59,825 nt of DNA from Candidatus Saccharimonadota bacterium (GCA_018499905.2 JAHBAU020000003.1:1-59825); one strand, 5' to 3'. Shown: positions 14,303 through 58,219, counted from the first letter of the stretch. The notes: a model not told the origin generated them from the letters alone. Program-made: numbers and translations.

Positions 14303-14344
14303 AGTGTGGGTTAGGCGAGGCGAGAACTGCTACAATAGAACGTT

Positions 14345-16309
14345 ATGAGCAAGTTCGAACTAAAGAGCGACTACAAGCCAACTGGTGATCAACCGGCGGC
14401 TATTGAGGCCCTGACAAAGGGCTTGCAGGCTGGACAGAAAGAACAGGTGCTCCTGGGGGTGACCGGGTCGGGCAAAACCTTTACTATGGCCAACATTATC
14501 CAAAGAGTTAATCGGCCAACCCTAGTTCTCAGCCACAACAAAACCCTGGCAGCCCAGCTATACGGCGAATTCAAAAAATTCTTTCCTAATAACGCTGTGC
14601 ACTATTTTGTCAGCTACTTTGATTACTATCAGCCCGAAGCCTATATTCCGCGCAGCGATACTTATATTGAAAAAGATTCGCAGATCAATGAAGAGATTGA
14701 CCGTTTGCGCCACGCCGCGACCGATGCGCTACTCAGTCGTCGAGATGTGATTATTGTTGCCAGTGTCAGCTGTATTTATGGTATTGGTTCAGTTGAAGAT
14801 TATGACAGTATGGCAGTTGTCATCACTGCCGGCGAGCGCCGGGTACGCGATAAAATGCTCCGGCAGTTGACCGATATTCAATACACTCGTAATGACATTG
14901 ATTTTTCGCGCGGGACATTCCGGGTTAAGGGCGATGTGGTTGATATTTTCCCGGCCGGTGAAGAAGTCGCTTATAGAGTAGAGCTGTTCGGTGACGAGGT
15001 CGAGCGTATCACGCGCATTGACCCGCTGACTGGCGAAATTCTGGCGGACCTACCAAGTCTCAAGGTCTTCCCGAGCTCGCACTACGTCACACCAGAAGCC
15101 AAGCTCAAAGTTGCATTGGGGCAGATTCAGCAAGAGATGGAAGAGCGATTGGCGTATTTCAAGAAGAACAACTTGCTTCTAGAGGCGCAGCGGATTCAGC
15201 AGCGGACACAATTTGACCTGGAGATGCTGGAAGAAACCGGTTTTGTGAAGGGCATTGAAAACTACAGTCGGTATTTAACGAATCGTGAGCCAGGTGAGCA
15301 GCCGGCGACGCTGCTTGATTATTTCCCGGATGACTACCTGATGTTTATTGACGAATCGCATATGACGGTGCCGCAAATCCGCGGTATGTATAACGGCGAC
15401 CGGGCGCGTAAAGAGGTGCTCGTCGAACACGGGTTTCGGCTGCCCAGCGCCTTGGATAATCGCCCACTAACTTTTATAGAGTTTGAGAAACACGTCAATC
15501 AAACCATTTATGTCAGTGCAACGCCTGCCGAATATGAGCTGAGTCGCTCGCCGGAGCCAGTCCAGCAGGTCATTCGACCAACCGGGCTGATTGACCCACA
15601 TATTGACGTTCGGCCGGTCGACGGGCAAGTTGACGATCTTATTGCCGAAATCCGAAAAACGACCGCCAAGCGGCAGCGGGTGCTAGTGACAACTTTGACC
15701 AAGCGAATGTCCGAAGATCTGACCGATTATCTCAAAGACATCAATATTAAAGTTGCCTATCTACACAGTGATGTTGAAACGCTCGAACGGAGCGATATTC
15801 TGCGCGATCTGCGGCTGGGTACCTACGACGTATTGATTGGTATCAACCTCTTGAGAGAGGGTCTGGACTTGCCGGAAGTTAGCCTAGTTGCCATTCTCGA
15901 TGCCGACAAAGAAGGATTTTTACGAAGTGAACAAGCGTTGGTGCAGACTATCGGCCGGGCGGCGCGTCATCAAGAAGGCCGGGTGATTATGTATGCCGAC
16001 AATATTACTGGCGGTATGAAGCGAGCGATGGATGAGACGAATCGCCGCCGTGCTATTCAGGAGGCTTACAATAAAGAGCATGGCATCACGCCCCAGGGCA
16101 TCAGCAAGTCAATCGAGAAGGGCATGCGACCGGATTTGCCTGAAGAAGCCAAGCGTGCCAAATTGGACCTCAAGAAAATTCCAAAAGACGAATACAAGCA
16201 CCTCATTAAAGATTTAACTGCGCAAATGGATCTAGCAGCCGCCAATCTGCAATTTGAAACCGCCGCCGAACTAAGGGATATTATTTCCGATATTAAATCC
16301 AAGCTGTAA
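14345..16309 (+). CDS. uvrB: Excinuclease ABC subunit B
   Basis: The damage-verification helicase of nucleotide excision repair. The 654 residues include Walker A GVTGSGKT at 38-45, the beta-hairpin region [12 protein letters not shown], the DESH box near residue 336 ([12 protein letters not shown]), helicase motif VI (QTIGRAARH) and a C-terminal UVR domain that binds UvrC. An extended -10 (TGCTACAAT, hexamer 14331-14336) lies 8 nt before the ATG and there is no Shine-Dalgarno, so the mRNA is predicted leaderless. Confidence 0.97.
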
Positions 16310-16369
16310 GTAATCTCGTGAAATATATGACTTTTCACAGGGCGACAAAGTGCTTGGTATACTTGGGTT

Positions 16370-16780
16370 ATGATACATGCTTTGGTTGGGAGTCTACTAT
16401 TGGCTTGTGTGGGCATTGCTATTGAAGTGGTGCTGACTGGTTTGGTTCGCTTTAGAAAGAAGCATGATACTTCGCTTGAGGGCTATAGCTATATATGGAT
16501 GATTCCTATTTATGCTTTGTCTTGGCCAATCTTGAGTGTGCTGTACCCGCGACTTAGTACATTGAACATCATCTTGCGAGGCACGATGTACGTATTTATT
16601 CTTTTCGTCGTTGAGTACGCGGCAGGGTGGTTACTTAGAGGTGCTCTTGGTGAGTGTCCTTGGGAAAAGCAATATAAGGGCAAAAAATGGGCGGTGAATA
16701 GTTTGGTTCGACTAGATTATGCGCCGGGATGGCTGGTAGTGGCACTGGTATTTGAGCAGCTGTACCTTGCCTTAAGATAA
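16370..16780 (+). CDS. Small multi-pass membrane protein, CmpB/TMEM229-like
   Basis: A 136-residue protein with about four hydrophobic segments: near residues 3-25, 40-58, 66-86 and 114-134. The arrangement of a conserved EYAAGWLLRGALGECPWE followed by a C-terminal PGWLVVALVFEQ resembles the PF06541 (ABC_trans_CmpB/TMEM229-like) fold, whose function is unsettled. That match is from memory of the pattern and is tentative. TATACT at 16358-16363 sits 6 nt before the ATG, so it is predicted leaderless. It opens a patch of four ORFans between uvrB and gatC. Confidence 0.65.
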   Translation: MIHALVGSLLLACVGIAIEVVLTGLVRFRKKHDTSLEGYSYIWMIPIYALSWPILSVLYPRLSTLNIILRGTMYVFILFVVEYAAGWLLRGALGECPWEKQYKGKKWAVNSLVRLDYAPGWLVVALVFEQLYLALR

Positions 16781-16827
16781 AAGTGAGCTTAGATTGAAAA
16801 ATATATAGAAAATGCTATAATATATAT

Positions 16828-17457
16828 ATGAAGTTGAAACATGTGGCCGCTAGCGCTGCTGCGATACTGCCTTTGGCGGCTTGTGGCGGTGAGGCGGAGC
16901 CGGTTCAGCAGGATGGTGCTGTTGTGACGCGGCTGGAATGGGTGTCTTTTGCCCATGTCGAGCGCACAACAACGTATACCGAGTTTGGATACTGTGACCC
17001 AGAAGTTCTGTTTCCTGATGATGAAAACGACTCGAGCTATCGTGATGCCCAGTGCACTGTTCCCATTGGTGCATACGCTATACAGCTAGCTGAAGCCGGT
17101 GAGGGTGATACCTATATGTGGCAATACAATATTGACGAGCTTGAGGTGTTCGATGACTGTGCAAAAAATAGTCGAGATCTCAAGGTACATGACACCGACC
17201 AAGCAACTGATAGGGTTCCGGTAGAATTCTGCAGCGACTTTGCGGGTGCGCAAGAGTTGCCAGGAGCCAAAATTGTCTACGACGCCGTGAACTACTACAT
17301 AAACTTCTCACATACCGATGGCGATATTTTTGTCGGCGCTAGTCGAAGTCAATGGCAGAATATCCCAGTTGGGGGGCCGCTAGAAATTGTTATTACGGCT
17401 AATAATGATCTGGTGTGTTACGCTCCCCTTGGTTCGGGCGAGTGCCTTTATGACTGA
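16828..17457 (+). CDS. Cysteine-rich predicted lipoprotein
   Basis: The 209-residue product begins with a short signal peptide ending in the lipobox L-A-A-C19, so it should be lipidated and held on the outer face of the membrane. The mature part is acidic and has six more cysteines (56, 76, 111, 135, 197, 206), enough for three disulfides. No family is recognised. TTGAAA (16794-16799) and an extended -10 TGCTATAAT (hexamer 16816-16821) lie only 6 nt before the ATG, predicting a leaderless mRNA. Its end overlaps the convergent gene by 10 bp. Confidence 0.75.
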   Translation: MKLKHVAASAAAILPLAACGGEAEPVQQDGAVVTRLEWVSFAHVERTTTYTEFGYCDPEVLFPDDENDSSYRDAQCTVPIGAYAIQLAEAGEGDTYMWQYNIDELEVFDDCAKNSRDLKVHDTDQATDRVPVEFCSDFAGAQELPGAKIVYDAVNYYINFSHTDGDIFVGASRSQWQNIPVGGPLEIVITANNDLVCYAPLGSGECLYD

Positions 17458-17780
17458 CGTTTTTTGTCGATGACGTGGGCGGCGCCGACGGCGAGTAGTA
17501 CGGCTGCGCCAACAAAACCGCCGACAGTGGCAATTCTTTTGCCGTGCTTGTGTAAAAAGTTGAGTCCTGTTTCTGGGTCGTGCTCAACCCCATCCGCACT
17601 ATCTGGAGTAATCAAATGCCTGTTGCCCTCACTGTCGGTAAGGGGGTACACAAATCCACTGAGCGACGGATCTTGCAACTGGTTAGTTAAATGAGGCGCA
17701 AACATATGTGACCCGACACTTTCATGCGGCACCTCACCCCCCATGTATACATCACTAGCATCTGGTTCATTTTGGCGCAT
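17448..17780 (-). CDS. Hypothetical C-terminally membrane-anchored protein
   Basis: About 110 residues, hydrophilic for the first 80 or so, then one membrane segment (VGGFVGAAVLLAVGAAHVI) and a basic tail KKRQS. This matches a tail-anchored or type II-like topology. The first in-frame ATG (17792) overlaps a -10 box TATAAT at 17791-17796 on the minus strand and cannot be transcribed from it. The ATG at 17780 lies 10 nt after the box and is taken as the start, again leaderless. The function is unknown. It converges on and slightly overlaps the lipoprotein gene. Confidence 0.6.
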   Translation of the reverse strand: MRQNEPDASDVYMGGEVPHESVGSHMFAPHLTNQLQDPSLSGFVYPLTDSEGNRHLITPDSADGVEHDPETGLNFLHKHGKRIATVGGFVGAAVLLAVGAAHVIDKKRQS

Positions 17781-17854
17781 ACGTGAGTACATTATAGTGG
17801 AAAAATAATGGCTAAGAACTAGTTAAAAGGATCTGGGAAGCTTAGGCGGAAGAT

Positions 17855-18853
17855 TTAGAAAGCGGTTTTCGTGTAAACCCGAGTTTGCATCTCTACATCT
17901 TCATCTGGCGTCCCCATCATCCTGCTGTAATCATGATGATGAGGTTGATGGTGTGTAAATTCATTTAGCGGGACAAACCCGGCGGCCTCGGCAATCTCGG
18001 CAATGGCCGATGCTCCCAAGTTATTATCAGATGTGCGCACAAGACCACGAGTGACCAGAATCCCTCGAGTCTTGAGTAATGGAAAAGCATTTTCCAAGCC
18101 CAATTCGACATCCTGGCGAGACATATGTTGCTCATTTAGAAGCAGTACAACATCAGCGATATCAACGGGGGCATCATGGGAAATTTGTGTGTCAACCATC
18201 TCTCTTGTAGTGTTTGCTGCTCCATCTTCTCTACCAAGGTATAGTCCTCTATCTAAAGCCAATTGTTTAGCTCCTGGACCAAGTAGCCGGTCATACTCTT
18301 CAAGGGCTATCTGATTTGCAAAATGTGTTCTAAAAACTGGAATATAAGTAAATGGGTGCCGCCCTTGACGAACCATGGCGATTTGGTCATTAACTAGACT
18401 CCTGCTACTCAAGCAAGCTCCCAAATCAAGCACGTATTCCGGCTCACGACTGAAGGGTATGGGCTGGTTGTCGACAATAGCATACTCACTATGCAATTCA
18501 GCAACAGATGTACCTGGGAATCCTTCAAACGGGCTTCCTGCTTGTGTAAAGTACTCAGCTAAAAAGCTTTGGTAGGCATATGTTGGGACATTTCTGTCTG
18601 GACCTGTCTCCACTGCAGAAGCTAGCATTTTTTGAGCTAACTCACCGTCGCTATAATTTAAAGCTCCAAAAAGCCTAGCCTCATAATCGTCAACAAAAGG
18701 TTCATGAAACGTGGCTATGTCCCCGTCGGCTAAGCCAGCTATGGACCCGTGTAACAGGTGGCCAAGTAAAGGGTCATCTAGCCGTAAATCGCGTGGGACA
18801 CCTTCAACTCCCACAAAGTCCATTACCTCAGAAATGATTATCGGTTCAGCCAT
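17855..18853 (-). CDS. Methyltransferase-like hypothetical protein
   Basis: A soluble 332-residue protein with no certain family. Residues 140-152 (YVLDLGACLSSRS) resemble motif I of class I SAM-dependent methyltransferases. The later DIADVVLLLNEQHMS and AFPLLKTRGILVTRG resemble motifs IV and V. The glycine-rich loop is degenerate, so it may have lost catalysis. The C-terminus is His-rich (HHQPHHHDY). A minus-strand TATAAT at 18877-18882 lies about 23 nt before the ATG. It is transcribed divergently from gatC across a 189-bp AT-rich gap. Confidence 0.6.
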   Translation of the reverse strand: MAEPIIISEVMDFVGVEGVPRDLRLDDPLLGHLLHGSIAGLADGDIATFHEPFVDDYEARLFGALNYSDGELAQKMLASAVETGPDRNVPTYAYQSFLAEYFTQAGSPFEGFPGTSVAELHSEYAIVDNQPIPFSREPEYVLDLGACLSSRSLVNDQIAMVRQGRHPFTYIPVFRTHFANQIALEEYDRLLGPGAKQLALDRGLYLGREDGAANTTREMVDTQISHDAPVDIADVVLLLNEQHMSRQDVELGLENAFPLLKTRGILVTRGLVRTSDNNLGASAIAEIAEAAGFVPLNEFTHHQPHHHDYSRMMGTPDEDVEMQTRVYTKTAF

Positions 18854-19042
18854 AAAGGGTCTTTCTACAAAAATCTATTATACAACGAAATAAGCATATA
18901 ACAAATATATTAAAACAAAACGATTGTTTATTAAAATGTAATTTACGCTAGTTAAGCATAACTTCTATGACAACTTGTCAAGAAAGTCACAAAATTACTT
19001 CTACACGGGTGCGATTACTTCTGTTATACTAATGAATCAGAT

Positions 19043-19333
19043 ATGGCAAAACTTACACGCGAGGATGTCTTAAAATTGGCCAAATTGGCAAAGCTGGAGC
19101 TTACTCCGGAGGAGATTGACCGGCTTACCAAAGACCTGCCATCAATTTTGGCCTATGTGGAACAGCTTGGCGAAGTCGATACCACTGGCCTTGAACCAAC
19201 CTTACAAGTTACCGGGTTACAGAACGTTAAACGCCCTGATGAAGTTATTGATTATGGCTACCAGCCTGCTGATCTGCTCAAAAATTTGCCTGCGGAACTT
19301 GGCGGCCAAATCAGGACCAAGAGGATCCTATAA
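19043..19333 (+). CDS. gatC: Asp-tRNA(Asn)/Glu-tRNA(Gln) amidotransferase subunit C
   Basis: The small structural subunit of the GatCAB amidotransferase, 96 residues, the usual length. KLTREDVLKLAKLAKLELTPEE and the following helical and linker residues with LRPDE-like KRPDEVIDYG are typical. An extended -10 TGTTATACT (hexamer 19025-19030) is 12 nt before the ATG, giving a leader of only about 5 nt. The stop codon is adjacent to the gatA ATG. Its presence implies indirect charging of Asn and/or Gln tRNAs. Confidence 0.92.
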   Translation: MAKLTREDVLKLAKLAKLELTPEEIDRLTKDLPSILAYVEQLGEVDTTGLEPTLQVTGLQNVKRPDEVIDYGYQPADLLKNLPAELGGQIRTKRIL

Positions 19334-20764
19334 ATGAGTCAATGGCCCCTTATTGCGGAAATCGCTGCTGCGGTTACAAGCGGCAAAACGACTGCCGTTG
19401 AGCAGGTGGAAAAGGCGCTCAAGACAATTGCCGACCAAAAAGAATACGACGCTATCATTGCCACTACGGCTGATCGAGCTTTGGAGCGAGCCAAGACGAT
19501 TGATGCAAAAATCAAAAACGGCGAGGCTGTTGGACGCCTGGCTGGCGTACCGTTTATTGCAAAAGATAATTATTTGGTGTTTGGGGCCGAAACGACGGCC
19601 GCTTCGAATATTTTGCGTGGATTTAATGCTCCATATCAGTCTACAGTCATTAATCGGCTGGAGGCCGAAGGCGCGATTTGCGTTGCCAAAGCCAATCTTG
19701 ATGCCTTTGCGCACGGGGCCAGTACCGAAAACAGCGACTTTTTTGTGACCAAAAACCCTCATGATACGTCACGAGTGCCCGGTGGCTCTTCTGGCGGTTC
19801 GGCTGCTTCAGTCGTGCTCGATATGGCGCCATTCGCGCTCGGCAGCGACACGGGCGGTTCGATTCGCCAGCCAGCCAGTTTTGTGGGGTGCGTCGGGTAC
19901 AAGCCAACCTATGGTCTAACCTCGCGCAGCGGTGTTGTAGCCATGGCAAGCAGCACCGACACCATGGGTCCGCTCACGCGCAACGTCGCCGATGCAGCCG
20001 AAGTGCTTGATGTCTATGCCGGCCCAGACCCACTAGATAGCACTACAACGCCACGCCAAGCCGAGGGCTATAGCGTGACCGGCCAAAAAATGGACCTTCA
20101 AGGTGTAAAAGTCGGACTGATTAAGCAATACATGGGTGATGGCATTGATGAGGCGGTCAAAAAAGTCGTATTAGAAGCGGCCGACAAACTAAAAAGCCGC
20201 GGAGCGATTGTTGAAGAAGTTGACTTGCCAAGTTTGCCTCTCGCGCTTGCGGTGTATTACATCATCGTCCCGGCTGAAGTGAGTAGCAACTTGAGCCGCT
20301 ACGACGGCCAGCGCTATGGTTTTTCAGCCAAGGATGCGACCGATCTTGAATCGAGCTATGTGCAGTCGCGCAGCCAAGGTTTTGGTGTTGAAGCCAAGCG
20401 CCGAATTATGATTGGGACGTATGTATTAAGTAGTGGTTACTACGACGCCTACTACAAAAAGGCTCAGACGGTTCGTACCAAGCTAATTAACGAATTCGCT
20501 GAGGCTTTTCAAAAGTATCAGTATCTCATTGGTCCAGTGGCGCCGACACCAGCCTTTCAGATTGGTGAAAATGCCGACGACCCGCTAAAAATGTACTTGT
20601 CAGATATTATGACGGTTGCAGCCAATCTGGTCGGTGTCCCCTCTATAAGTCTGCCGGCTGGAACTGTAGGCAAGCTGCCTGTGGGGCTTCAAATAATGGC
20701 ACCAATGAATAAAGATCGAGAGCTGCTGCTCATGGCGCTGGCCGCTGAGGAGGTGTTGGCATGA
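19334..20764 (+). CDS. gatA: Asp-tRNA(Asn)/Glu-tRNA(Gln) amidotransferase subunit A
   Basis: The amidase subunit that frees ammonia from glutamine for transfer to mischarged tRNA. The 476 residues contain the amidase signature: catalytic lysine in PFIAKDNY, GGSSGGSAASVV and LGSDTGGSIRQPASFVG with the cis-Ser/Ser pair. Length and motifs are normal. It follows gatC directly and overlaps the next membrane-protein gene by 4 bp (ATGA). Confidence 0.96.
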   Translation: MSQWPLIAEIAAAVTSGKTTAVEQVEKALKTIADQKEYDAIIATTADRALERAKTIDAKIKNGEAVGRLAGVPFIAKDNYLVFGAETTAASNILRGFNAPYQSTVINRLEAEGAICVAKANLDAFAHGASTENSDFFVTKNPHDTSRVPGGSSGGSAASVVLDMAPFALGSDTGGSIRQPASFVGCVGYKPTYGLTSRSGVVAMASSTDTMGPLTRNVADAAEVLDVYAGPDPLDSTTTPRQAEGYSVTGQKMDLQGVKVGLIKQYMGDGIDEAVKKVVLEAADKLKSRGAIVEEVDLPSLPLALAVYYIIVPAEVSSNLSRYDGQRYGFSAKDATDLESSYVQSRSQGFGVEAKRRIMIGTYVLSSGYYDAYYKKAQTVRTKLINEFAEAFQKYQYLIGPVAPTPAFQIGENADDPLKMYLSDIMTVAANLVGVPSISLPAGTVGKLPVGLQIMAPMNKDRELLLMALAAEEVLA

Positions 20765-21165
20765 ACCTGCTGACGTTGATAGCGATCCTGCTGTTTGTCT
20801 TTGCTGGCTCTGTTTTAGCTATGCGATTCGTGTTTAAAAGGCGGGTGAATAAGCCAAAGTATAAAGCTCGCTGGCAAGAGCTGCAGAAATTTTTGGCCAG
20901 CCGTGAAACCTGGCCTTTGGCGGTCATAACGGCTGACAAATTGCTTGATGAAGCCCTCAAAAAACGCCGATTCAAGGGCAGGAGTATGGGCGAACGGCTG
21001 GTGTCGGCTCAGCGCACATTTAGTGACAATGACGGTGTCTGGTTTGCACATAATTTATCCAAAAAATTAGCCGACGAATCGGCTGTACGCTTGCGGCAGG
21101 TTGACGTAAAAAAATCATTGGTTGGCGTCCGTCAAGCGCTGCGTGACCTTGGAGTCCTCGAATGA
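20761..21165 (+). CDS. Single-pass membrane protein encoded between gatA and gatB
   Basis: The 134-residue product has an N-terminal membrane segment (LLTLIAILLFVFAGSVLAMRFVF), a basic stop-transfer and a cytosolic helical domain rich in Lys and Arg. No known family is recognised. It overlaps gatA by 4 bp and gatB by 4 bp, so translation is coupled to both. GatCAB is normally a soluble complex, so a membrane partner gene inside its operon is unusual. A role tethering the transamidosome or an unrelated function are both possible. Confidence 0.8.
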   Translation: MNLLTLIAILLFVFAGSVLAMRFVFKRRVNKPKYKARWQELQKFLASRETWPLAVITADKLLDEALKKRRFKGRSMGERLVSAQRTFSDNDGVWFAHNLSKKLADESAVRLRQVDVKKSLVGVRQALRDLGVLE

Positions 21166-22622
21166 GCGATTATATAGCCACTATTGGTATTGAGTGCCAT
21201 GTGCAGCTGAGTACTAAAACCAAACTGTTCGCAGGTGTGGCAAACGATGCGCGCGAAGCCGCACCAAATACCTTGGTCAGTCACATTTGCTTTGGATTGC
21301 CCGGTGCGTTGCCGGTTTTAAATGAGAAAGTTGTAGAGTACGCCAGCCGGATGGCTTTCGCTTTTGGCACTCGTCCACAAACCTATAGCTACTTTGAACG
21401 AAAGCATTATTTTTATCCAGACTTGCCCAAAGGCTACCAGATCACCCAGTTACAAAAACCAATTATTGTTGGCGGAGAAGTGGAAATTTCGGTCAATGGC
21501 CAAAAGCAGACGGTACGCTTAAATCGTGTCCAAATTGAAGAAGACGCCGGCAAAAATACTCACCCTGACAAAGCAGACTATAGCCTTGTCGATCTTAATC
21601 GGGCCGGTACACCGCTGCTTGAAATTGTTTCCGAGCCCGACATCACCAGCCCTGAAGCCGCCAAGGCCTATGCTAAAGAGCTGTACTTATTGGCGCGCTA
21701 CGCCGGCATCAGCGATGCGGATATGTATCATGGCAACATGCGCTTTGACCTGAACGTCTCGGTGTCTAACGATCCAAATGTGTTGGGAACTCGAACCGAA
21801 ACAAAGAACCTTAACTCGTTCCGGAGCATAGAAAAAGCCGCTGAATACGAAATTAAACGGCAGACCGAGCTGCTCAAAAAAGGGGAAAAGATTGTCCAGG
21901 AAACGCGCGGTTGGGATGAAGCCAAGCAAAAAACTGTGTCGCAGCGCTCCAAAGAAGAAGCCCACGATTATCGCTACATGCCCGATCCGGATTTGCCGCC
22001 AATTGTCTTAGACGAAGCCTTCATTACTCGTGTTGAAAAAGCCATGCCAACTATGCCCTCGCAGTGGCGGGCACATTTATTACAACTTGGTTTGGATGAA
22101 GCGCAGGTGAGTACCTTGCTTGACGCCGAGCTCGAGCACGAGGGCATCACCTATCTGATGCTTATAAAAGATGCTTTAAGCCAAGCTGAATACGCGAAAT
22201 TCATTGCTAATTTTGCCGTTAACACCGAAATACCGCTACGACGAGATGCTGAGACTGAGCCAGCCATACAGCCAAGTGATCGAGCTGCTTTGTATAGCGG
22301 CGTCTACGCCCTTATTCAGGCCGGTAAGCTCAGTTCGACCAACGCCAAAGCCTTGTTTACCGCAATACTGCAAGCCGCGTCATTACCATCTGACTTTGAG
22401 GCCTACGCCAAAGACAAGGGCCTAGTGCAGATGTCGGACGAGGGTGCGCTAGATAAAATAGTGGCCGAAGTCTTAGCCGAGAACGAAGCGGCAGCCCAAG
22501 ATGTGAAGAATGGTGAAATGAAAGCCATCGGCTTTTTGGTTGGACAAGTGATGAAAAAATCGGCTGGCCAGGCCAACCCAGGTGTTGCCACCCAACTTAT
22601 TAAAAAACAGCTCGGCGTATAA
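21162..22622 (+). CDS. gatB: Asp-tRNA(Asn)/Glu-tRNA(Gln) amidotransferase subunit B
   Basis: The kinase-like and tRNA-binding subunit that activates the tRNA-bound carboxylate. The 486 residues begin with the hallmark IGIECHVQLSTKTKLF, carry ERKHYFYPDLPKGYQITQ and NRAGTPLLEIVSEPD, and end with a YqeY/tail domain (NPGVATQLIKKQL). Length is typical. It overlaps the preceding TM gene by 4 bp. The TATAAT of the next gene's promoter lies across its stop codon. Confidence 0.96.
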   Translation: MSDYIATIGIECHVQLSTKTKLFAGVANDAREAAPNTLVSHICFGLPGALPVLNEKVVEYASRMAFAFGTRPQTYSYFERKHYFYPDLPKGYQITQLQKPIIVGGEVEISVNGQKQTVRLNRVQIEEDAGKNTHPDKADYSLVDLNRAGTPLLEIVSEPDITSPEAAKAYAKELYLLARYAGISDADMYHGNMRFDLNVSVSNDPNVLGTRTETKNLNSFRSIEKAAEYEIKRQTELLKKGEKIVQETRGWDEAKQKTVSQRSKEEAHDYRYMPDPDLPPIVLDEAFITRVEKAMPTMPSQWRAHLLQLGLDEAQVSTLLDAELEHEGITYLMLIKDALSQAEYAKFIANFAVNTEIPLRRDAETEPAIQPSDRAALYSGVYALIQAGKLSSTNAKALFTAILQAASLPSDFEAYAKDKGLVQMSDEGALDKIVAEVLAENEAAAQDVKNGEMKAIGFLVGQVMKKSAGQANPGVATQLIKKQLGV

Positions 22623-22632
22623 TTTCGAAAAT

Positions 22633-23379: not shown

Positions 23380-23422
23380 TCCTAGATGTCACCTGCTGCC
23401 TATCCGTGTTAAAATTTAGTTT

Positions 23423-24322: not shown

Positions 24323-24340
24323 GGTGTATACTATACGTAT

Positions 24341-24601: not shown

Positions 24602-24607
24602 ACGACA

Positions 24608-25066: not shown

Positions 25067-25114
25067 AATAAAATCGACCTGCGGCAAGCAAATCAGTTAG
25101 AATAGAAGCTTGAA

Positions 25115-25162
25115 ATGGAGGGTAGACAACCGGTCTTTTTAGTATGGGCGCAAAACAGCTAA
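25115..25162 (+). CDS. Possible 15-codon upstream ORF overlapping the dnaE start
   Basis: ATG 25115 opens MEGRQPVFLVWAQNS and stops at 25162, running across the dnaE ATG (25144) in another frame. A -10-like TAGAAT (25098-25103) is 11 nt before it. dnaE has no Shine-Dalgarno at the right distance, so the small ORF could deliver ribosomes to dnaE. This is a weak candidate based only on layout. Confidence 0.25.
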   Translation: MEGRQPVFLVWAQNS

Positions 25163-30427: not shown

Positions 30428-30469
30428 CCGTATACCGCTGGCTCGCTGACTGTTATAATACTTATGCTT

Positions 30470-33682: not shown

Positions 33683-33699
33683 AATGATATAATATAGTA

Positions 33700-36806: not shown

Positions 36807-36840
36807 TCCTTCTAGTTTACCATATATTTACTTCTTAAAA

Positions 36841-38733: not shown

Positions 38734-38770
38734 TTAGCACTCTTGACACCCGAGTGCCAACTGCTACAAT
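38734..38770 (+). promoter_or_regulatory. CIRCE operator and promoter of clpC
   Basis: TTAGCACTC-N9-GAGTGCCAA at 38734-38760 matches the HrcA-binding CIRCE consensus (TTAGCACTC-N9-GAGTGCTAA) with one mismatch. The spacer contains a perfect -35 TTGACA (38743-38748). An extended -10 TGCTACAAT (hexamer 38765-38770) follows after 16 bp. HrcA bound here would block RNA polymerase directly. Confidence 0.92.
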
Positions 38771-43766: not shown

Positions 43767-43768
43767 AT

Positions 43769-46747: not shown

Positions 46748-46892
46748 TGAATGGTCGTTGTTTCCAATACGTCATTAATCATACGCATATTCATATAGTA
46801 GTATAGCAAAAAACTGGCTTTTCAAGTGCTTAAAAGTAACTACGAAGCGTCTATTTTTGGCGTGTAGCCCTAAACCGATTAGAATATGATTC

Positions 46893-47894: not shown

Positions 47895-47935
47895 AAACCG
47901 ACAGCAAGCTCAGGCAGGCTGCTACAATACTCCTT

Positions 47936-49972: not shown

Positions 49973-49979
49973 GTCATTT

Positions 49980-50813: not shown

Positions 50814-51343
50814 GAGTTATTGCCGGTTCGTTAGGTGGCCGGGTCTTTCAAGCACCAAAAGGCCACAAAACACACCCAATGGGTGACCGCATTAAGGGAG
50901 GGCTATTTAATGCTTTAGGGGATATCAGTGGATTATCAGTGCTGGACGCTTTTGGCGGCAGTGGCGCGCTCGCAATCGAAGCTATTAGCCGGGGCGCGGC
51001 ATCAGCAACCGTCTTGGAGCCTGATCGCCAGGCGAAACAAACAATTGATGAAAATATTGCTCAGTTAGGGATTGGTGCAGCCATAAAAGCGACAAAAGCT
51101 ACGGCCGGTTCCTGGTCTGATACTAACCAAGCAAAACTCTTTGACATTGTCATCTGCGATCCGCCGTATGACGACCTGCAGCTTGGAACGCTGCAAAAGC
51201 TGGTACACCATGTTCGGTCAGGCGGAATAATGGTCATCTCCTGGCCTGGTAAAATGATTCCAGCTGAGCTAGTTGGCATGACACAGGCCAAGAATTTAAC
51301 TTACGGCGATGCCCAACTGGTGTTTTACAAAAAACTCAGCTAG
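50810..51343 (+). CDS. rsmD: 16S rRNA (guanine(966)-N2)-methyltransferase RsmD
   Basis: Methylates G966 (E. coli numbering) of 16S rRNA. 177 residues with MRVIAGSLGGRVFQAPKG at the start, motif I LDAFGGSGALAIEAISRGA and the catalytic DPPY in IVICDPPYDDL. Length and motifs are normal. The ATGA overlap couples it to the preceding gene. A predicted extended -10 (TGTTACATT) for the tRNA lies just after its stop. Confidence 0.93.
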   Translation: MRVIAGSLGGRVFQAPKGHKTHPMGDRIKGGLFNALGDISGLSVLDAFGGSGALAIEAISRGAASATVLEPDRQAKQTIDENIAQLGIGAAIKATKATAGSWSDTNQAKLFDIVICDPPYDDLQLGTLQKLVHHVRSGGIMVISWPGKMIPAELVGMTQAKNLTYGDAQLVFYKKLS

Positions 51344-51369
51344 AATGATCGCTGTTACATTGCTACCCT

Positions 51370-51454
51370 GCGCGGGTGGCGAAATTGGTAGACGCACTAG
51401 CCTTAGGAGCTAGCGGGGCAACCCATGAAGGTTCAAGTCCTTTCCCGCGCACCA
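51370..51454 (+). tRNA. tRNA-Leu (anticodon UAG)
   Basis: 85 nt with encoded CCA. The 7-bp acceptor stem GCGCGGG pairs with CCCGCGC (51444-51450). The anticodon arm CTAGC-CTTAGGA-GCTAG gives anticodon TAG, which reads CUN leucine codons. The long variable arm (class II tRNA) and the T-loop TTCAAGT are present. TACATT at 51356-51361, preceded by TG, is 8 nt upstream, so transcription may begin at the mature 5' end. Confidence 0.96.
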
Positions 51455-51491
51455 AAACAACTAAGCGACCTATGGGTCGTTTTGTTGTTTT
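51455..51491 (+). terminator. Terminator after tRNA-Leu
   Basis: The inner stem CGACC/GGTCG (loop TATG) is continued by outer arms AAAACAAC/GTTGTTTT; the outer left arm begins at 51454, the last base of the tRNA. The right arm supplies a T-rich tail. Confidence 0.8.
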
Positions 51492-51494
51492 GTA

Positions 51495-51623
51495 GCCGGA
51501 GGACTTGAACCGGAGGCGATGACACCTTTTGGTGTCTGAGTTTTCCGCGCTTGGCCGCCTTGCCGTTGGCGTTCACGCCAACGTTTGGCAGGCGCATGAT
51601 AACGCAAGTCCTTTCCCGCGCAC
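51495..51623. other. tRNA debris: inverted T-arm fragment and direct repeat of the tRNA-Leu 3' end
   Basis: CAAGTCCTTTCCCGCGCAC (19 bp) at 51605-51623 repeats the end of tRNA-Leu (51434-51452) exactly. Between them, the minus strand carries GGTTCAAGTCCT (same T-arm sequence as the tRNA), a variable-arm-like hairpin GACACC-AAAA-GGTGTC, and further upstream a strong GTTGGCG/CGCCAAC hairpin. No complete tRNA can be folded on the minus strand. The block looks like remains of tRNA genes or of integrations into the tRNA 3' end. The rest of the gap to 51719 is AT-rich with a TATAAT at 51697-51702. Confidence 0.6.
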
Positions 51624-51719
51624 TATACCAAAAACCTTCGGAACCCATCCTAAGCAACAACGCGTCCCAAAGCATAGACAAAACAAAAATAAAGTATATA
51701 ATATATATGGAAGATTTTT

Positions 51720-51935
51720 ATGCTTAATAATGAAGTAAAAGCCAGTCATATAGTAGTTGTTGATTCACTTGGTGCTGTTGCTGGTGCATTGGTTGGTATG
51801 GTTGCTGATGTTCTGTTGCCGGGTAGCACACAAGAATATCCAATCCCAAATACTCCAAGAGAGCTAATCGCCACATTCTTGGGTGCTATTGCTGGTGCAG
51901 TAATAACGCACAAAAATGTAGCTCGTAATCTCTAG
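51720..51935 (+). CDS. Small membrane protein, 71 aa
   Basis: Two hydrophobic glycine-rich segments (IVVVDSLGAVAGALVGMVADVLL and ELIATFLGAIAGAVIT) are separated by a short polar loop. No family is recognised; glycine spacing is reminiscent of pore- or zipper-type small membrane proteins. TATAAT (51697-51702) and GGAAG (51709-51713) precede the ATG. It follows the tRNA debris directly and may be part of a decayed acquired segment. Confidence 0.55.
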   Translation: MLNNEVKASHIVVVDSLGAVAGALVGMVADVLLPGSTQEYPIPNTPRELIATFLGAIAGAVITHKNVARNL

Positions 51936-52019
51936 CGCTAAACCAACTTGCCGATATCTAGTTAGAATTGTTTTGTTTTGGCTTGTGTCAAAAATTGTTA
52001 AATCGTATATTGATTGATT

Positions 52020-52685
52020 ATGGGAAGAGCGAGCTTACCTGAAGCACGATGGATAGATGTAGATGTGGCGGCTGTATTTCCCAAGATCCGTGAAGGTGTA
52101 CCTGTAGGATATGGTAATGATTACGAAGACTTAGTTCCTCATATGTTTCTTGACTACGATTTCGCAGAAGGTCCTCAAGCGGCACTACTGAGCGGCTGCA
52201 AGCCGTTCATAGAAGGTGTCGTGCATGATTTCCAAGAGCAGATGGGGTGTGATGCTGATGGAATTCGCAAACTAGGCATCCACCATTTAGAGCCAGGTAC
52301 AGACTATAATTCGCAAACTTGGCACCGAGATCGGCTATTTCCTGGAGAGGTTTTGTATGTTGCCGTGGATGGGCAGCCAACAGAGGCTGCACACGGCCCT
52401 GACAGGTTTTGGTTTAACAAGCTCCCTTACGCTGTTCCGATTAATGGTCCGACGAATTATTTAGTATCTCATGGTTACTTAGAAGTTGTTTCGGGAGCCG
52501 CAGATCAAGCAATAGCCATGACCTCGGGAGTCGTTCACCGAGCCGGGGGTATGGATGAAGGATCGCGCGTTGTTATATCAGCTTCAGTACACAATCGTGC
52601 ATACGCTCGAGAGGAACTCATGAATTCAATTTGGGATGGTCGCGAACTCAGACGAAAAGTGCGTCACGATCCATACGGCATCTAA
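52020..52685 (+). CDS. ORFan resembling a 2-oxoglutarate/Fe(II) dioxygenase fold
   Basis: 221 residues. W101-H102-R103-D104 supplies an HxD pair, and H173 with R183 (SGVVHRAGGMDEGSRVVISASV) completes the H-x-D...H...R pattern of double-stranded beta-helix dioxygenases that bind iron and 2-oxoglutarate. This is inference from the motif order. TATATT (52006-52011) with TTGTGT 17 bp upstream lies 8 nt before ATG 52020, so the TTG at 52014 is rejected as the start. Confidence 0.65.
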   Translation: MGRASLPEARWIDVDVAAVFPKIREGVPVGYGNDYEDLVPHMFLDYDFAEGPQAALLSGCKPFIEGVVHDFQEQMGCDADGIRKLGIHHLEPGTDYNSQTWHRDRLFPGEVLYVAVDGQPTEAAHGPDRFWFNKLPYAVPINGPTNYLVSHGYLEVVSGAADQAIAMTSGVVHRAGGMDEGSRVVISASVHNRAYAREELMNSIWDGRELRRKVRHDPYGI

Positions 52686-52728
52686 AAAGTGACGTACGCA
52701 AGGGCGAGAGCGTGCTAGAATTATGTGC

Positions 52729-52962
52729 ATGAAACCAAATAGGGTCGAGTTCGAGCCGCCGCTACCGCCTTCCGAAGACTGGGGCGCGTTCGTTGCGGAA
52801 GTCAGCAGTCTACCTATGCCGACAGATGCTGAACTAGACCAACTTCCGGCATTTGTTGGGCAAGCAAGAGACCTATTTCCGGAAGGAGTAGAATTGCACC
52901 TTGCCAAGCAGCGTCCTCCATATGACGGTACGCCCCTAGTGCATACGCGAATTCTTTCCTGA
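52729..52962 (+). CDS. Hypothetical protein, 77 aa
   Basis: An acidic, proline-rich small soluble protein (EFEPPLPPSEDWGAF, FPEGVELHLAKQRPPYDG) without recognised family. An extended -10 TGCTAGAAT (hexamer 52716-52721) is 7 nt before ATG 52729. An in-frame ATG at 52723 is only 1 nt after the box and is rejected. It ends one base before the convergent membrane-protein gene. Confidence 0.5.
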   Translation: MKPNRVEFEPPLPPSEDWGAFVAEVSSLPMPTDAELDQLPAFVGQARDLFPEGVELHLAKQRPPYDGTPLVHTRILS

Positions 52963-52963
52963 A

Positions 52964-53659
52964 CTACTTCGCAGCCTTCGCAAGTTTCTTTAGTTCAAAG
53001 TAGCGCAAAGGAGCAGCAACTGAATACAGGGCTGCCAGCACAAAGCTGATACCCCAGCCGATAATGCCAAAGCTACCGATGATGGAGATCAAAATAGTGA
53101 CGCCTATAACACCCCAAATGCTTCCCCAGCGACCTCTTGAAATACGCTCGGAATCCTTCATTGCTTCCCCTATGCTTAGATCTTTATCGATCATGGCAAA
53201 AGGTGAAAGGAAATAACGGCTGATAACGATCACGCCGGGAACGATCAGCAAGACTAAGCCAACAACAGAGAGTACGCCGACTACAATGCCAAGTCCCAAA
53301 AGCCGCCACGCGTATTTTTTGGTGTCTTGCCAGACCTCACCTAAAGTGGGGGTCTTGCCATGAGCTACCTTAAACTCAAGTACAATCATCATAATCGCCA
53401 CAATCACATATAAGATTGCAAACAATATAGACAAGGAAATCGCGGCACCAAGCAATGGGCCGACTTTGAAGGTGCCATTGGTCCACATTACCCCATTTTG
53501 ACGATCCTCTTGATTATTTGATAGGCTCAAAAGCCCCAAAACAAAAGGTAGTGCGTATAGAATTGCGAAAGTGTTGAGGTTGGCCTTGACTAAGTCAGCA
53601 CTCTTATTAAACAGACTAAAAGCACTTTCCGGCTGATGGTCCGATGCTTGGTTACTCAT
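52964..53659 (-). CDS. Multi-pass membrane protein, 231 aa
   Basis: About five or six hydrophobic segments with a polar N-terminus; RGRWGSIWGVIGVTILISIIGSF and similar stretches resemble glycerophosphoryl-diester-phosphodiesterase membrane-domain or DUF975-type proteins. No function can be given. The frame extends upstream to 53767, but AAGGAGT about 10 nt before the ATG at 53659 fixes the start. It is divergent from hisS. Confidence 0.75.
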   Translation of the reverse strand: MSNQASDHQPESAFSLFNKSADLVKANLNTFAILYALPFVLGLLSLSNNQEDRQNGVMWTNGTFKVGPLLGAAISLSILFAILYVIVAIMMIVLEFKVAHGKTPTLGEVWQDTKKYAWRLLGLGIVVGVLSVVGLVLLIVPGVIVISRYFLSPFAMIDKDLSIGEAMKDSERISRGRWGSIWGVIGVTILISIIGSFGIIGWGISFVLAALYSVAAPLRYFELKKLAKAAK

Positions 53660-53760
53660 AGACAAGAAACTCCTTCGTAAGTTATTTGGTCGAATTATGC
53701 GCTTAGTTTGACTGCGTTTCAATGCCATCCTGTATAATGACCCCTGAAGGACATTATCAA

Positions 53761-55068
53761 ATGACACTACAAACCCAACCCTACAAGGGTTCTCGAGATT
53801 TTTATCCAGAAGATAAGCGGCTGCAAAAGTATATTTTTAAGACAATGCGCTCTGCGGTTGAGATCTTTGGGTACGAAGAATACGACGCACCAATTTTAGA
53901 ATCACTAGATCTTTATAAAGCCAAAACCGGCCAAGAAATAGTCAACGAACAAACCTATGCCTTTGTTGATCGGGGCGGTCGTGAAGTGGCAATTCGTCCC
54001 GAAATGACACCTTCAGTTAGTAGAATGGTGGCGGCTCGTCGCCAGGAATTAAGCTACCCGTTGCGTTGGTATAGTCTCCCTAATCTTTGGCGCTACGAAC
54101 GTCCTCAACGCGGCCGTCTGCGGGAACACTGGCAGCTGAATGTCGACATTTTTGGGGTTGCCGGATTGCAGGCCGAGCACGAAATTATTCTTGTGGCCGA
54201 CCAAGTTATGCGAGCTTTTGGCGCGAAACGCCATATGTACACCATTAAACTCAATAGCCGACGCTTGATGGACATGATTTTTAGTGAATACTTGCAAGTA
54301 AGTCAGGTCCAGAGTCAGTCACTGGCTAAGCTTATCGACCGTATGCACAAAATGGAGCACTCAGAATTCGTGGCTGATCTAGATGCGCTATGCACTCCTT
54401 CGCAGCGCGAATCTGGCATGAGTGATCGGCTCATGGCGTTACTTAAGACCACAACTCTCGAGGAGCTCCCACCAGAAATACAACAGCACGACGCTTGCGT
54501 GACTTTGACCAAGTTACTGAAGCTTCTTAAGTCATCAGAAATAACCAACGCTGTGTTTGATATTACTGTTATGCGTGGGTTTGACTACTATACCGATGTC
54601 GTTTTTGAGGTTTTTGATACTCACCCTGACAATAATCGTTCGATGTTCGGTGGTGGGCGCTACGATGGCCTGGTTGGTCTTTTCGGCGTCGACCCTGTGC
54701 CAACAGTCGGTTTTGGCATGGGCGACGTGACGCTTGCCAATTTCTTGGATGTACATGGGCTTATGCCTAATCTGAAAGTTGAGTCAGATATGTATGTTGT
54801 GCTGGTCGGCGATGTATACGATAAGGCTCAAAAACTATTAGCCGAGCTTCGTCAGATGGGGCTGAAGCTGGCAGTTGATTGTTCCGGTAAAAAGCCAGGT
54901 GATCAGATTAAGACTGCTGTCAAAAAGGGTATTAGCTACGTGCTGATTGTTGGTGACCGCGAACTGGCTGAAGACCACTACACAATCAAGAATTTAGTGT
55001 CAGGCGAAGAAGAGCATCATAGTCTGCAGCGGATTGTCAGCATCGTCAAAGATTACCGAAAAAAGTAA
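53761..55068 (+). CDS. hisS: Histidyl-tRNA synthetase
   Basis: Charges tRNA-His. From ATG 53761 it has 435 residues: motif 1 region KGSRDFYPEDKRL, motif 2 WRYERPQRGRLREHWQ, the HisA motif RGFDYYTDVVFE near residue 270, motif 3 GGGRYDGLV...VGFGMG, and a C-terminal anticodon domain. TATAAT at 53733-53738 and AAGGA at 53747-53751 precede the ATG, so the longer frame from 53722 is not used: that ATG lies upstream of the -10. Confidence 0.95.
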   Translation: MTLQTQPYKGSRDFYPEDKRLQKYIFKTMRSAVEIFGYEEYDAPILESLDLYKAKTGQEIVNEQTYAFVDRGGREVAIRPEMTPSVSRMVAARRQELSYPLRWYSLPNLWRYERPQRGRLREHWQLNVDIFGVAGLQAEHEIILVADQVMRAFGAKRHMYTIKLNSRRLMDMIFSEYLQVSQVQSQSLAKLIDRMHKMEHSEFVADLDALCTPSQRESGMSDRLMALLKTTTLEELPPEIQQHDACVTLTKLLKLLKSSEITNAVFDITVMRGFDYYTDVVFEVFDTHPDNNRSMFGGGRYDGLVGLFGVDPVPTVGFGMGDVTLANFLDVHGLMPNLKVESDMYVVLVGDVYDKAQKLLAELRQMGLKLAVDCSGKKPGDQIKTAVKKGISYVLIVGDRELAEDHYTIKNLVSGEEEHHSLQRIVSIVKDYRKK

Positions 55069-55071
55069 CTT

Positions 55072-55512
55072 ATGACAGCGTCTAACCATGTAGTCACCGG
55101 CGCGCTGATTGTCACTATTGTGCACAATCCGGTGCTCGGGCTGACCTTAGCGCTTCTTTCTCATCCATTTCTTGATATGGTGCCGCATTTTGGCGTGGAG
55201 CCGACTCGGATGATGGCTTTTTTGCCTGGGTTCTTGGCCGACGTTGCGATTGCTCTGAGCGTGCTCATAGCGCTAATAATCGTCCGGCCGGACCAATACA
55301 TATTACTCATAGCTGGCGGTATTGCCGCGGCCAGCACTGATCTGTTAAATATCCCGGAATTTATTGATGCGCTTCGGCATAGGCCCCATCACAAAGGACC
55401 GATCCGGCGGTTTCTGTCTTGGATTCAATGGTCGCAGACCGTACCAGGCCTTATTGTGGAATTTGTGTGGTTCTTTTCAGTTGGCTCACTCCTGCTTGGT
55501 CGGCTCTCTTAA
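55072..55512 (+). CDS. Integral membrane protein, YdjM/DUF457-like (tentative)
   Basis: 146 residues, about four hydrophobic segments. The N-terminal HVVTGALIV and the SHPFLDMVPHFG motif (His, Asp, His) recall the membrane-bound metal-dependent hydrolase (YdjM/DUF457) family. RHRPHHKGPIRR is a basic, His-rich loop. The start is 3 bp after the hisS stop, so the two genes are co-transcribed. Confidence 0.65.
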   Translation: MTASNHVVTGALIVTIVHNPVLGLTLALLSHPFLDMVPHFGVEPTRMMAFLPGFLADVAIALSVLIALIIVRPDQYILLIAGGIAAASTDLLNIPEFIDALRHRPHHKGPIRRFLSWIQWSQTVPGLIVEFVWFFSVGSLLLGRLS

Positions 55513-55564
55513 AAAATCTAACAGGGGTCTAGCGTAAATCCTCAAGAGATGGTAGGGTAATGGG

Positions 55565-56878
55565 ATGCAAGTAACACGAAACAACGTATCACCCACCGAA
55601 GTCAATCTAAGCATCACGGCAGATGCAAAAGAGCTGCAGCCTATCAAAGATGCTGTCGTCAAGCGGTTGGGTCGTGATTTGAAGCTACCTGGCTTCCGCC
55701 CAGGTAAAGCTCCCGAACATTTATTAGAAAAGAATATCAACCCTGCTAATTTAGAAAATGAATTTTTGCAACTAGCTGTCAGTCACTTTTATGAGCAAGC
55801 GGCTACCAAAGAACTCATACGCCCTATTGGCACACCCAAAGTTAGTCTCAAGAAATTCGTTCCTTACACTACTCTCGAATTTGACATTACTATTGCAGTT
55901 ATCGGTCAGGTGACGCTCGGTGATTACAAAAAGATCAAGAAGGCAAAACCGCAAGCCAGTGTGACCGCCGAAGATGTCAATGGTGTTTTGGCCTCCTTGG
56001 CGCGTCGAGCAGCCGAAAAAGTGTCGGTAGATCGAGCGGCTAAAAACAGTGATGAAGTGTTAATCGACTTTGCCGGTGTTGATAGCAAAGGCGAACCAAT
56101 TAATGGTGCGGCTGCCAAGGACTACCCGCTGGTACTTGGTAGCGATAGCTTTATTCCTGGTTTTGAAGAACAGATCGTTGGCATGAAGCCAGGTGAGCAC
56201 AAAAGCTTTCCAATCAGTTTTCCAAAAGACTACCAAGTGGCTGCATTAGCCGGCAAGAAAGCAACATTTACTGTTGATCTAAAAACTGTCAATGAACTGA
56301 TTGAACCAAAGATTGACGATAGTTTTGCGCCCAAGGTCAGTCCGCTCAAGACGCTCAAGGAGCTCAAAGAAGACATTAAACAGCAGCTGTTGTACGAAGC
56401 CCAGACCAACATTAATAGACAGTACGAGAACGAGATCCTCAAAGATATTGCCGACAAGTCAAAAGTTGCAATTCCAAAAGAGCTTGTTGACGAACAGATT
56501 ACCCGCAACGAAGAGGGCGAACGGCAAAACCTGCTGTACCGTGGCCAAACATGGCAAGAGCACCTCGCTGAAGAGGGTGTAACAGAAGAAGAACACCGGG
56601 AGCGTCAGCGCCCAACCGCCGAAGAAACAGTTAAAGTGAGCTTGGTGCTGAGTGAGATCGCTCGTGCAGAAGGGGTGATGGTGACGCCCGAAGAGCTTGA
56701 AGTGCGCATTACGCTACTCAAAGGTCAATACACCGATCAGAAAATGCGCGATGAACTAGATAAGCCAGAAAATCGCCAAGAAATCTCCGCCCGTTTGCAT
56801 GCCGAAAAGACCATTGAAAAGATCTTAAGCTACGTGACGCAAACCAAACCAGCAGCTAAGCCCAAAGCCAAGAAATAA
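55565..56878 (+). CDS. tig: Trigger factor
   Basis: The ribosome-associated chaperone and prolyl isomerase. 437 residues: N-terminal ribosome-binding domain with the signature GFRPGKAP (residues 44-51), a central FKBP-type domain (VLIDFAGVDSKGEPINGAAAKDYPL...FEEQIVGMKPGEHK), and the helical C-terminal chaperone arms. Ends in a Lys-rich tail. It lies just upstream of clpP, the usual bacterial order tig-clpP(-clpX). Confidence 0.94.
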   Translation: MQVTRNNVSPTEVNLSITADAKELQPIKDAVVKRLGRDLKLPGFRPGKAPEHLLEKNINPANLENEFLQLAVSHFYEQAATKELIRPIGTPKVSLKKFVPYTTLEFDITIAVIGQVTLGDYKKIKKAKPQASVTAEDVNGVLASLARRAAEKVSVDRAAKNSDEVLIDFAGVDSKGEPINGAAAKDYPLVLGSDSFIPGFEEQIVGMKPGEHKSFPISFPKDYQVAALAGKKATFTVDLKTVNELIEPKIDDSFAPKVSPLKTLKELKEDIKQQLLYEAQTNINRQYENEILKDIADKSKVAIPKELVDEQITRNEEGERQNLLYRGQTWQEHLAEEGVTEEEHRERQRPTAEETVKVSLVLSEIARAEGVMVTPEELEVRITLLKGQYTDQKMRDELDKPENRQEISARLHAEKTIEKILSYVTQTKPAAKPKAKK

Positions 56879-56883
56879 TGAAA

Positions 56884-56925
56884 TTAGCACTCATGCTTGA
56901 CGAGTGCTAATTGTGACGGTACACT
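56884..56925 (+). promoter_or_regulatory. CIRCE operator and promoter of clpP
   Basis: TTAGCACTC-N9-GAGTGCTAA (56884-56910) is a perfect CIRCE. -35 TTGACG (56897-56902) starts in the spacer, and -10 TACACT is at 56920-56925, 17 bp away. The organisation copies that of clpC, so HrcA should repress both. Confidence 0.94.
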
Positions 56926-56932
56926 GGGTTGT

Positions 56933-57541
56933 ATGAACAAACCAACCAATCTACTCATCCCAACCGTCATTGAATCAGAAGGCCGCATGGAGCGAGCCTA
57001 CGATATTTACAGCCGTCTGTTAAAAGACCGCATTATCTTCTTGGGTGAAGACGTAAACGAGCACACTGCTAACCTTATCGTGGCTCAGTTACTATTTTTG
57101 GATAATGAACAGCCTGGACGTGATATCTATTTATATATCAATAGCCCGGGTGGCGTCGTTTATGATGCTTTGGCGATTTATGACACCATGCAGTACATCA
57201 AAAGTGACGTGCAAACTGTTGGTATCGGTGTCCAAGCCAGTGCCGCCGCATTCTTATTGTCTAGCGGCACCAAGGGTAAGCGAGTTATTTTGCCGAACGC
57301 CACTGTTATGATTCATCAGCCTTCAAGCGGAACGCGTGGTAAGGTGACCGATATGGAAATCGACCTCAAAGAGTCACTGCGTATTAAACAGCGTTTGAAC
57401 GAAATTATGGCTAAGAATACCGGACAGACCGTTAAGAAGATCCAAGAAGATATGGAACGAGACTACTGGATGCCAGCAGAAGACGCGTTGAAGTACGGCA
57501 TTGTTGATAAAGTTATCGACTCCATTAAGAAGCTAAGCTAA
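56933..57541 (+). CDS. clpP: ATP-dependent Clp protease proteolytic subunit
   Basis: A serine protease that forms the Clp proteolytic barrel with ClpC. 202 residues with catalytic S103 (GVQASAAAF), H128 (MIHQPSSG) and D177 ([11 protein letters not shown]). ATG 56933 is 7 nt after the -10, predicting a leaderless mRNA. A frame extension to TTG 56897 would start inside the -35 box and is excluded. clpX is not in the window. Confidence 0.97.
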
Positions 57542-57586
57542 CCGATAGTTGGCGTTTAATAGGAAAAATGCTATAATATTTAAATT

Positions 57587-58219
57587 ATGGCTAAATATTA
57601 CACAGGTGGTGGCATAGAAGGGTATGAAGGGTTTGAAACGTTGCGTGGGCTGCAGCCACTAACGCGTGCGTTCGACCTTGCAACAGCACGTTTAAGGGAT
57701 AGCGATATTCTGGTCGATGCACCATTTGCTGCCCACAACTATGGCAGTCCATTACGGGCCTACCGTCGGATAAAGTATATTTCTGGTCTTGTAGAAGAGA
57801 ATGAAATGCGTGCATCAGTTTTGCTACATGACGAAAGAGCTGTTGGGGTTGGCAGTGCTGTCCCGGCAGATTTTCCTGGCACTTTTGATGAACTTAGGGA
57901 TGCAGGTATAAGACCAGAATTACCGATGACAGCTGTTGAAATTGACTACTGGCATGCAGACTTAGCACCAGCTCAGCGAAGTGTTTTTGACGCACGGACT
58001 ACTCGAACGCTTATTTCGCAATCCTTAGGACTGGTGGGAGCGCGAGGCGGCGATATGGTGCTTGCATGGCAAGCCGTGCCAACGGTCAATGTGAGTGAAC
58101 AAGAGGCCTGTCTGGCTAACGGAATGGTACCAGTGGGTGAGCCTGGCAATATTGCAATAGGTGACGGGGTAGATCTCGTTCGGCAAGTATACGCTAAACC
58201 AGCCGCTATACTTGGTTGA
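57587..58219 (+). CDS. ORFan, 210 aa, possibly acetyltransferase-like
   Basis: Soluble protein of unknown family. A central strand RAVGVGSAVPAD, EIDYWHADL and the C-terminal NVSEQEACLANGMVPVGEPG loosely recall GNAT acyltransferases (ageing-strand and A-x-N-G-x-x-x-x-G patterns), but this is weak. TTGGCG (57549-57554) and extended -10 TGCTATAAT (hexamer 57572-57577) with 17-bp spacing lie 9 nt before the ATG. It is a single-gene unit between clpP and rpoB. Confidence 0.6.
   Translation: MAKYYTGGGIEGYEGFETLRGLQPLTRAFDLATARLRDSDILVDAPFAAHNYGSPLRAYRRIKYISGLVEENEMRASVLLHDERAVGVGSAVPADFPGTFDELRDAGIRPELPMTAVEIDYWHADLAPAQRSVFDARTTRTLISQSLGLVGARGGDMVLAWQAVPTVNVSEQEACLANGMVPVGEPGNIAIGDGVDLVRQVYAKPAAILG

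Follow-up and report, generated by a model that had tools for sequence, protein, structure and literature searches.

Does a -10 box only a few nucleotides ahead of an ATG mark genes whose mRNAs begin at the start codon itself, and how far does such an arrangement reach across a genome? The question is raised by a window of 59,825 nucleotides, the entire length of one contig of a draft genome (1,089,139 bases in 48 contigs, 91% complete), in which a preliminary description made from the sequence had listed 16 such boxes and had read them as a genome-wide-looking rule. Because the RecG protein encoded in the window is closest to proteins of Candidatus Saccharibacteria genomes (best matches at about 57–65% identity), the organism can be placed in or near this lineage (TM7, Patescibacteria). 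Elsewhere in the draft, a 3-kb contig (C48) carries a match to the Rfam family IsrR, the antisense RNA of isiA (806-983, 95 bits), and is possibly a contaminating cyanobacterial contig.

When every coordinate was checked, all 16 listed boxes were present, each with an open ATG 6–10 nt downstream, and 9 or 10 of them, where about ten had been claimed, bear the TGn extension (table 1). The box of the M1 aminopeptidase gene is an additional clear case that the list had lacked. At the box of the T2SSE-type ATPase the more distant of two ATG codons (30470) is likely the true start, since the nearer one (30464) lies just 4 nt from the box, and the frame behind the box at 46880 may not be a gene. Three of the ATG codons (22633, 52020 and that of clpP at 56933) sit within longer open reading frames started by GTG or TTG.

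Table 1. Candidate -10 boxes and CIRCE operators in the window (1-based positions; spacer, nucleotides between box and ATG).
Gene	Element	Position (strand)	Spacer and start codon	Remarks
uvrB	-10 TACAAT with TGC extension	14331..14336 (+)	8, ATG 14345	UvrB Pfam
136-aa gene	extended -10 TGGTATACT	16358..16363 (+)	6, ATG 16370	PF06541
209-aa gene	extended -10 TGCTATAAT	16816..16821 (+)	6, ATG 16828	without Pfam family
110-aa gene	-10 TATAAT	17791..17796 (-)	10, ATG 17780	without Pfam family
248-aa gene	-10 TATAAT	22618..22623 (+)	9, ATG 22633	without Pfam family
galU-like nucleotidyl transferase	extended -10 TGTTAAAAT	23410..23415 (+)	7, ATG 23423	
86-aa gene	-10 TATACT	24327..24332 (+)	8, ATG 24341	without Pfam family
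T2SSE-type ATPase	extended -10 TGTTATAAT	30454..30459 (+)	4, ATG 30464; 10, ATG 30470	
164-aa gene	extended -10 TGATATAAT	33688..33693 (+)	6, ATG 33700	without Pfam family
M1 aminopeptidase	extended -10 TGGTAAACT	36814..36819 (-)	7, ATG 36806	
clpC	CIRCE (HrcA operator)	38734..38760 (+)		1 mismatch; contains TTGACA -35 at 38743-38748
clpC	extended -10 TGCTACAAT	38765..38770 (+)	6, ATG 38777	16 bp from -35
doubtful 36-aa ORF	TAGAAT	46880..46885 (+)	7, ATG 46893	
recG	extended -10 TGCTACAAT	47923..47928 (+)	7, ATG 47936	
221-aa gene	-10 TATATT	52006..52011 (+)	8, ATG 52020	without Pfam family
77-aa gene	extended -10 TGCTAGAAT	52716..52721 (+)	7, ATG 52729	
clpP	CIRCE	56884..56910 (+)		exact; contains TTGACG -35 at 56897-56902
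clpP	-10 TACACT	56920..56925 (+)	7, ATG 56933	17 bp from -35
210-aa gene	extended -10 TGCTATAAT	57572..57577 (+)	9, ATG 57587	without Pfam family

The preliminary description had proposed looking for a positional peak of -10 boxes upstream of first-in-operon genes against shuffled sequence, and when this was done genome-wide (1.0865 Mb of the draft) the peak was clear. Gene calls in the fragmented draft (1029 genes) drew on hexamer coding potential together with a prior for start codons, leaving the upstream sequence unused. Among 602 first-in-operon ATG genes (divergent neighbor or an upstream gap of at least 25 nt), strong -10 boxes occur 1, 2, 4, 4, 3 and 1 times at spacers 0–5 and 51, 39, 30, 25 and 19 times at spacers 6–10, tailing off by spacer 12 towards a background near 5.5 boxes at each position. 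The extended form TGnTAnnnT at spacers 5–10 is found 35 times where the upstream neighbor is divergent (3.1 in dinucleotide shuffles, z 19) and 34 times behind a same-strand gap of at least 60 nt (2.9 in shuffles, z 18.8), compared with 3 times before operon-internal genes (1.8 in shuffles). In a stricter set of first genes (divergent or gap of at least 60 nt only; 486 ATG and 84 GTG/TTG genes), a box precedes 144 of the 486 ATG genes (30%) and 13 of 252 operon-internal ATG genes (5%); control windows hold 22 and 42 boxes, leaving roughly 100–120 above background. The rule thus applies to about 25–30% of first-in-operon ATG genes and not to the genome as a whole, and in roughly one in four to one in three first-in-operon genes the promoter is so placed that the mRNA should start at or next to the AUG.

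The arrangement is selective with respect to both the start codon and the Shine-Dalgarno (SD) sequence. Only 4 of the 84 GTG/TTG genes have a box (Fisher p 1.3e-7 against the ATG genes), such that AUG is enriched next to the box while GUG and UUG stay at background. An SD-like motif 4–11 nt upstream of the start occurs in 42% of operon-internal ATG genes and in 22% of first genes, bearing out the earlier remark that genes with a classic leader coexist with box genes. Box genes had also been described as lacking an SD sequence, and indeed box and SD-like motif occur together in just 4 of the 144 (p 3e-13), an exclusion that is partly forced because the two compete for the same bases. By strict definitions 241 of the 486 first genes have neither element. 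A 16S rRNA gene, sought for a check of the anti-SD sequence, was not found in the draft genome.

One underlying assumption of these counts is that the annotated starts are the true ones. If the real start were instead a downstream in-frame codon preceded by an SD sequence, the mRNAs would have ordinary leaders, and gene calls made from coding potential only in a fragmented draft leave such errors conceivable; we nevertheless regard this explanation as very unlikely. Downstream starts with an SD sequence are found in 16 of 190 box genes (8%), 16 of 128 SD genes (12%) and 27 of 284 remaining genes (10%), showing no excess among box genes, and relatives of UvrB share the N-terminus that adjoins the box, which leaves little room for a start further downstream. 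The association also appears when gene calls are dispensed with altogether: genome-wide, the 173–174 occurrences of TGnTAnAAT are followed by an open ATG at spacers 5, 6, 7, 8, 9 and 10 in 0, 17, 13, 11, 5 and 5 cases, that is, 51 at spacers 6–10, where more distant spacers would lead one to expect 6.3. Across the whole draft genome GTG and TTG are not enriched downstream of TGnTAnAAT, and the reversed-motif and ATTATA controls are flat.

A second possibility is that the A/T-rich box acts in translation, for instance as an A/U stretch bound by ribosomal protein S1, and that the mRNA itself starts further upstream. For other phyla there has been discussion of AT-rich upstream elements as possible binding sites of S1 (PMC5397173), and the genome encodes a protein with multiple S1 domains, but the anatomy of the motif is that of a promoter and makes this reading highly improbable. 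Alignment of 129 boxes gives the consensus TnTGnTATAAT, with frequencies of 0.55 for T at -5, 0.51 for T at -3 and 0.59 for G at -2; about 39% of the boxes carry the complete TGn, and a weak TTG lies 17 bp upstream (-35 score of at least 4 of 6 in 30–38%, against 21% for all boxes), a -35 being dispensable at extended -10 promoters. Transcription from sigma-70 promoters usually starts at the 7th nucleotide after the -10 box. A spacer of 6 places the A of the ATG at exactly this nucleotide, so the minimum spacing equals the distance from -10 to +1, and in 41 of 51 spacer-6 genes (80%) this A follows a T or C. Spacers 0–5 would be missing because the transcript would then begin inside or beyond the start codon; an edge at spacer 6 is predicted by a leaderless system and not by a translational enhancer. 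Additionally, the box is nearly absent from operon-internal genes.

The promoters of clpC and clpP also speak against an S1 signal. Their -35 hexamers lie inside CIRCE elements, for which the chance expectation is 0.01, at spacings to the -10 box, as read from the sequence, of 16 bp for TTGACA (clpC) and 17 bp for TTGACG (clpP); being at the correct distance, these boxes belong to regulated promoters, and for both genes we predict control of the HrcA type acting on a promoter without a leader. The operator, TTAGCACTC-N9-GAGTGCTAA, is the same as at known CIRCE/HrcA heat-shock promoters, whereas its placement is different: here the whole operator is upstream of the -10 and includes the -35, and there is no leader in which it could sit.

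We therefore consider it very probable that these boxes are promoters of the housekeeping sigma factor whose transcripts start at the start codon or only a few bases away from it, which would give SD-less, leaderless or near-leaderless mRNAs for about 25–30% of first-in-operon ATG genes, while SD sequences are used inside operons. The basis of this reading in the sequence is the promoter-like motif, its spacing, the restriction to AUG, the near-exclusion of SD sequences and the conservation at uvrB and recG; leaderlessness itself (the position of the RNA 5′ ends) and the 70S mechanism are what we infer from it. RNA polymerase carrying the housekeeping sigma factor would initiate at the A of the ATG or a few bases upstream of it, such that transcription and translation would begin at nearly one and the same nucleotide. 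The ribosome would then initiate on a 5′-terminal or near-terminal AUG without an SD sequence, presumably as a 70S particle, a mode known from leaderless mRNAs elsewhere (PMC9031893), and genes within operons would initiate via their SD sequences. The original proposal that the mRNA starts at or next to the ATG thus agrees with the box spacing, with a qualification: spacers 6–7 predict strictly leaderless mRNAs, whereas spacers 8–10 would leave leaders of about 1–4 nt, making part of the box set near-leaderless only.

A further suggestion concerns the cause of leaderless usage and leaves the leaderless reading itself intact, namely that it is driven by the organism having lost initiation factor IF3. 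Leaderless translation can be inhibited where IF3 is high (PMC9031893) and no IF3_C match was found in this draft genome, yet 38 of 41 genomes in a sample of relatives that share the grammar have IF3, which refutes its loss as the cause for the order and makes the idea extremely unlikely overall. Given this distribution and a draft that is 91% complete, the gap here is probably missing sequence; IF3 is also missing in two relatives (G008 and G022), probably through assembly gaps. Chance, or the AT-rich composition of intergenic DNA combined with a loose pattern (TAnnnT alone is just 1.3-fold above background), has next to no prospect of accounting for the boxes and is refuted by the shuffles (z 17–19 for strong and extended boxes) and the sharp edge at spacer 6, with flat reversed-motif and ATTATA controls and no signal before GTG/TTG or in operons.

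The box-to-ATG unit of our preferred (near-)leaderless promoters is conserved, by sequence comparison, across Saccharibacteria at uvrB and recG. A box lies 6–10 nt before uvrB in 22 of 25 genomes of the same order (typically TGnTACAAT plus 6 nt, with variable flanking bases) and in 6 of 24 genomes from other classes of Patescibacteria; the corresponding figures for recG are 19 of 27 Saccharibacteria, 9 of 14 other Patescibacteria and 3 of 33 other bacteria, with 0–2 in control windows for the two genes. In a small set of orthologue pairs within the order, box status is weakly conserved (0.35 vs 0.17, Fisher p 0.14); this pooled comparison points in the right direction but is not significant, and box sites would therefore turn over at many genes.

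Beyond single loci, the TGnTAnAAT histogram recurs at spacers 6–10 in relatives (25 vs 2.0 expected; 400 kb from 20 genomes of the same family or order) and in other Patescibacteria (22 vs 2.2; 400 kb from 20 genomes, one of the same class and the rest from elsewhere in the phylum). Escherichia coli K-12 (200 kb) gives 0 vs 0.2; it has few such boxes (9 TGnTAnAAT), so that its value as a control is carried by looser box classes, none of which peaks at 6–10 above background. Deinococcus deserti plasmid 2 (150 kb) is a weak positive control, with 3 strong TAnnnT boxes vs 0.3 at spacers 6–10, small counts in the expected direction; a Rhodococcus plasmid was discarded as a positive control, having too few boxes at 66% GC, and the exact TATAAT pattern gives zero counts in two GC-rich plasmids.

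Comparing TATAATN{6,8}ATG with its reversed control, which is coarse given that base composition varies among genomes, yields 49/18 in this genome, 59/9 in the sole sampled genome of the same class but a different order, and 46–78 vs 24–36 in named Saccharibacteria genomes. Other Patescibacteria are clearly raised in several cases (e.g., 87/28, 115/46, 118/46), whereas some are flat (82/92, 104/135, 42/65), and the ratio is near 1–1.5 for the Firmicutes among the named genomes. The signature is hence uneven across Patescibacteria, with families in which it is strong and families in which it is flat, so that a tree could be used to trace where it was gained or lost. Two Armatimonadota genomes, encountered through their recG loci, are strongly raised (112 vs 15 and 55 vs 12), which suggests leaderless usage in that phylum too.

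The grammar itself, though an uncommon route to translation, is already known (Zheng et al. 2011, PMC3160421); what is added here is the lineage and the AUG-only usage. In that survey, TA-led leaderless genes were found in 207 of 953 bacterial genomes, their share of genes being about 20% for Actinobacteria and 40% for Deinococcus-Thermus, with TANNNT located some 12 bp ahead of the start, a TG extension in low-GC genomes, a mixture with SD genes and a leaderless state deduced, as here, from the position of the -10 box. The present genome displays the same TANNNT peak, SD-poor box genes, concentration at first-in-operon positions and AUG next to the box, together with the TGn upstream of TATAAT of sigma-A extended -10 promoters, whereas the groups with leaderless genes in the survey omit TM7/Patescibacteria. 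PMC9581028 cites work with GeneMarkS-2 in which 21.6% of bacterial species were predicted to have leaderless transcription. Mycobacterial leaderless mRNAs (Shell et al. 2015, PMC4633059) likewise start at the start codon, lack an SD sequence and make up a substantial share of transcripts; however, mycobacteria accept both ATG and GTG, the latter being at background here, and their starts were mapped experimentally whereas ours are predicted from sequence. Leaderless genes are also common in Deinococcus deserti (PMC9031893), which differs in its high GC content and in the reported share (up to 60% of genes, compared with about 25–30% of first genes here). No published report of leaderless genes in Saccharibacteria, Patescibacteria or CPR was found in a search that excluded most subscription papers and all preprints, the matches examined being entries in reference lists or a comment about YchF.

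As a tentative proposal, which we hold to be possible but somewhat short of probable, AUG-only leaderless initiation may be ancient and widespread in many Patescibacteria lineages, selected at genes such as uvrB and recG, and an old trait shared with Armatimonadota, Actinobacteria and Deinococcota. The lineage would be added to the bacteria rich in leaderless genes, a point of relevance to the question of whether this mode of initiation is ancestral. If annotation of Patescibacteria uses SD-centered start models, at least a quarter of first genes would have to be given a leaderless one instead. For cultured Saccharibacteria, the box-to-ATG rule offers a simple promoter design and a prediction, open to testing, of how translation begins on their reduced ribosomes.
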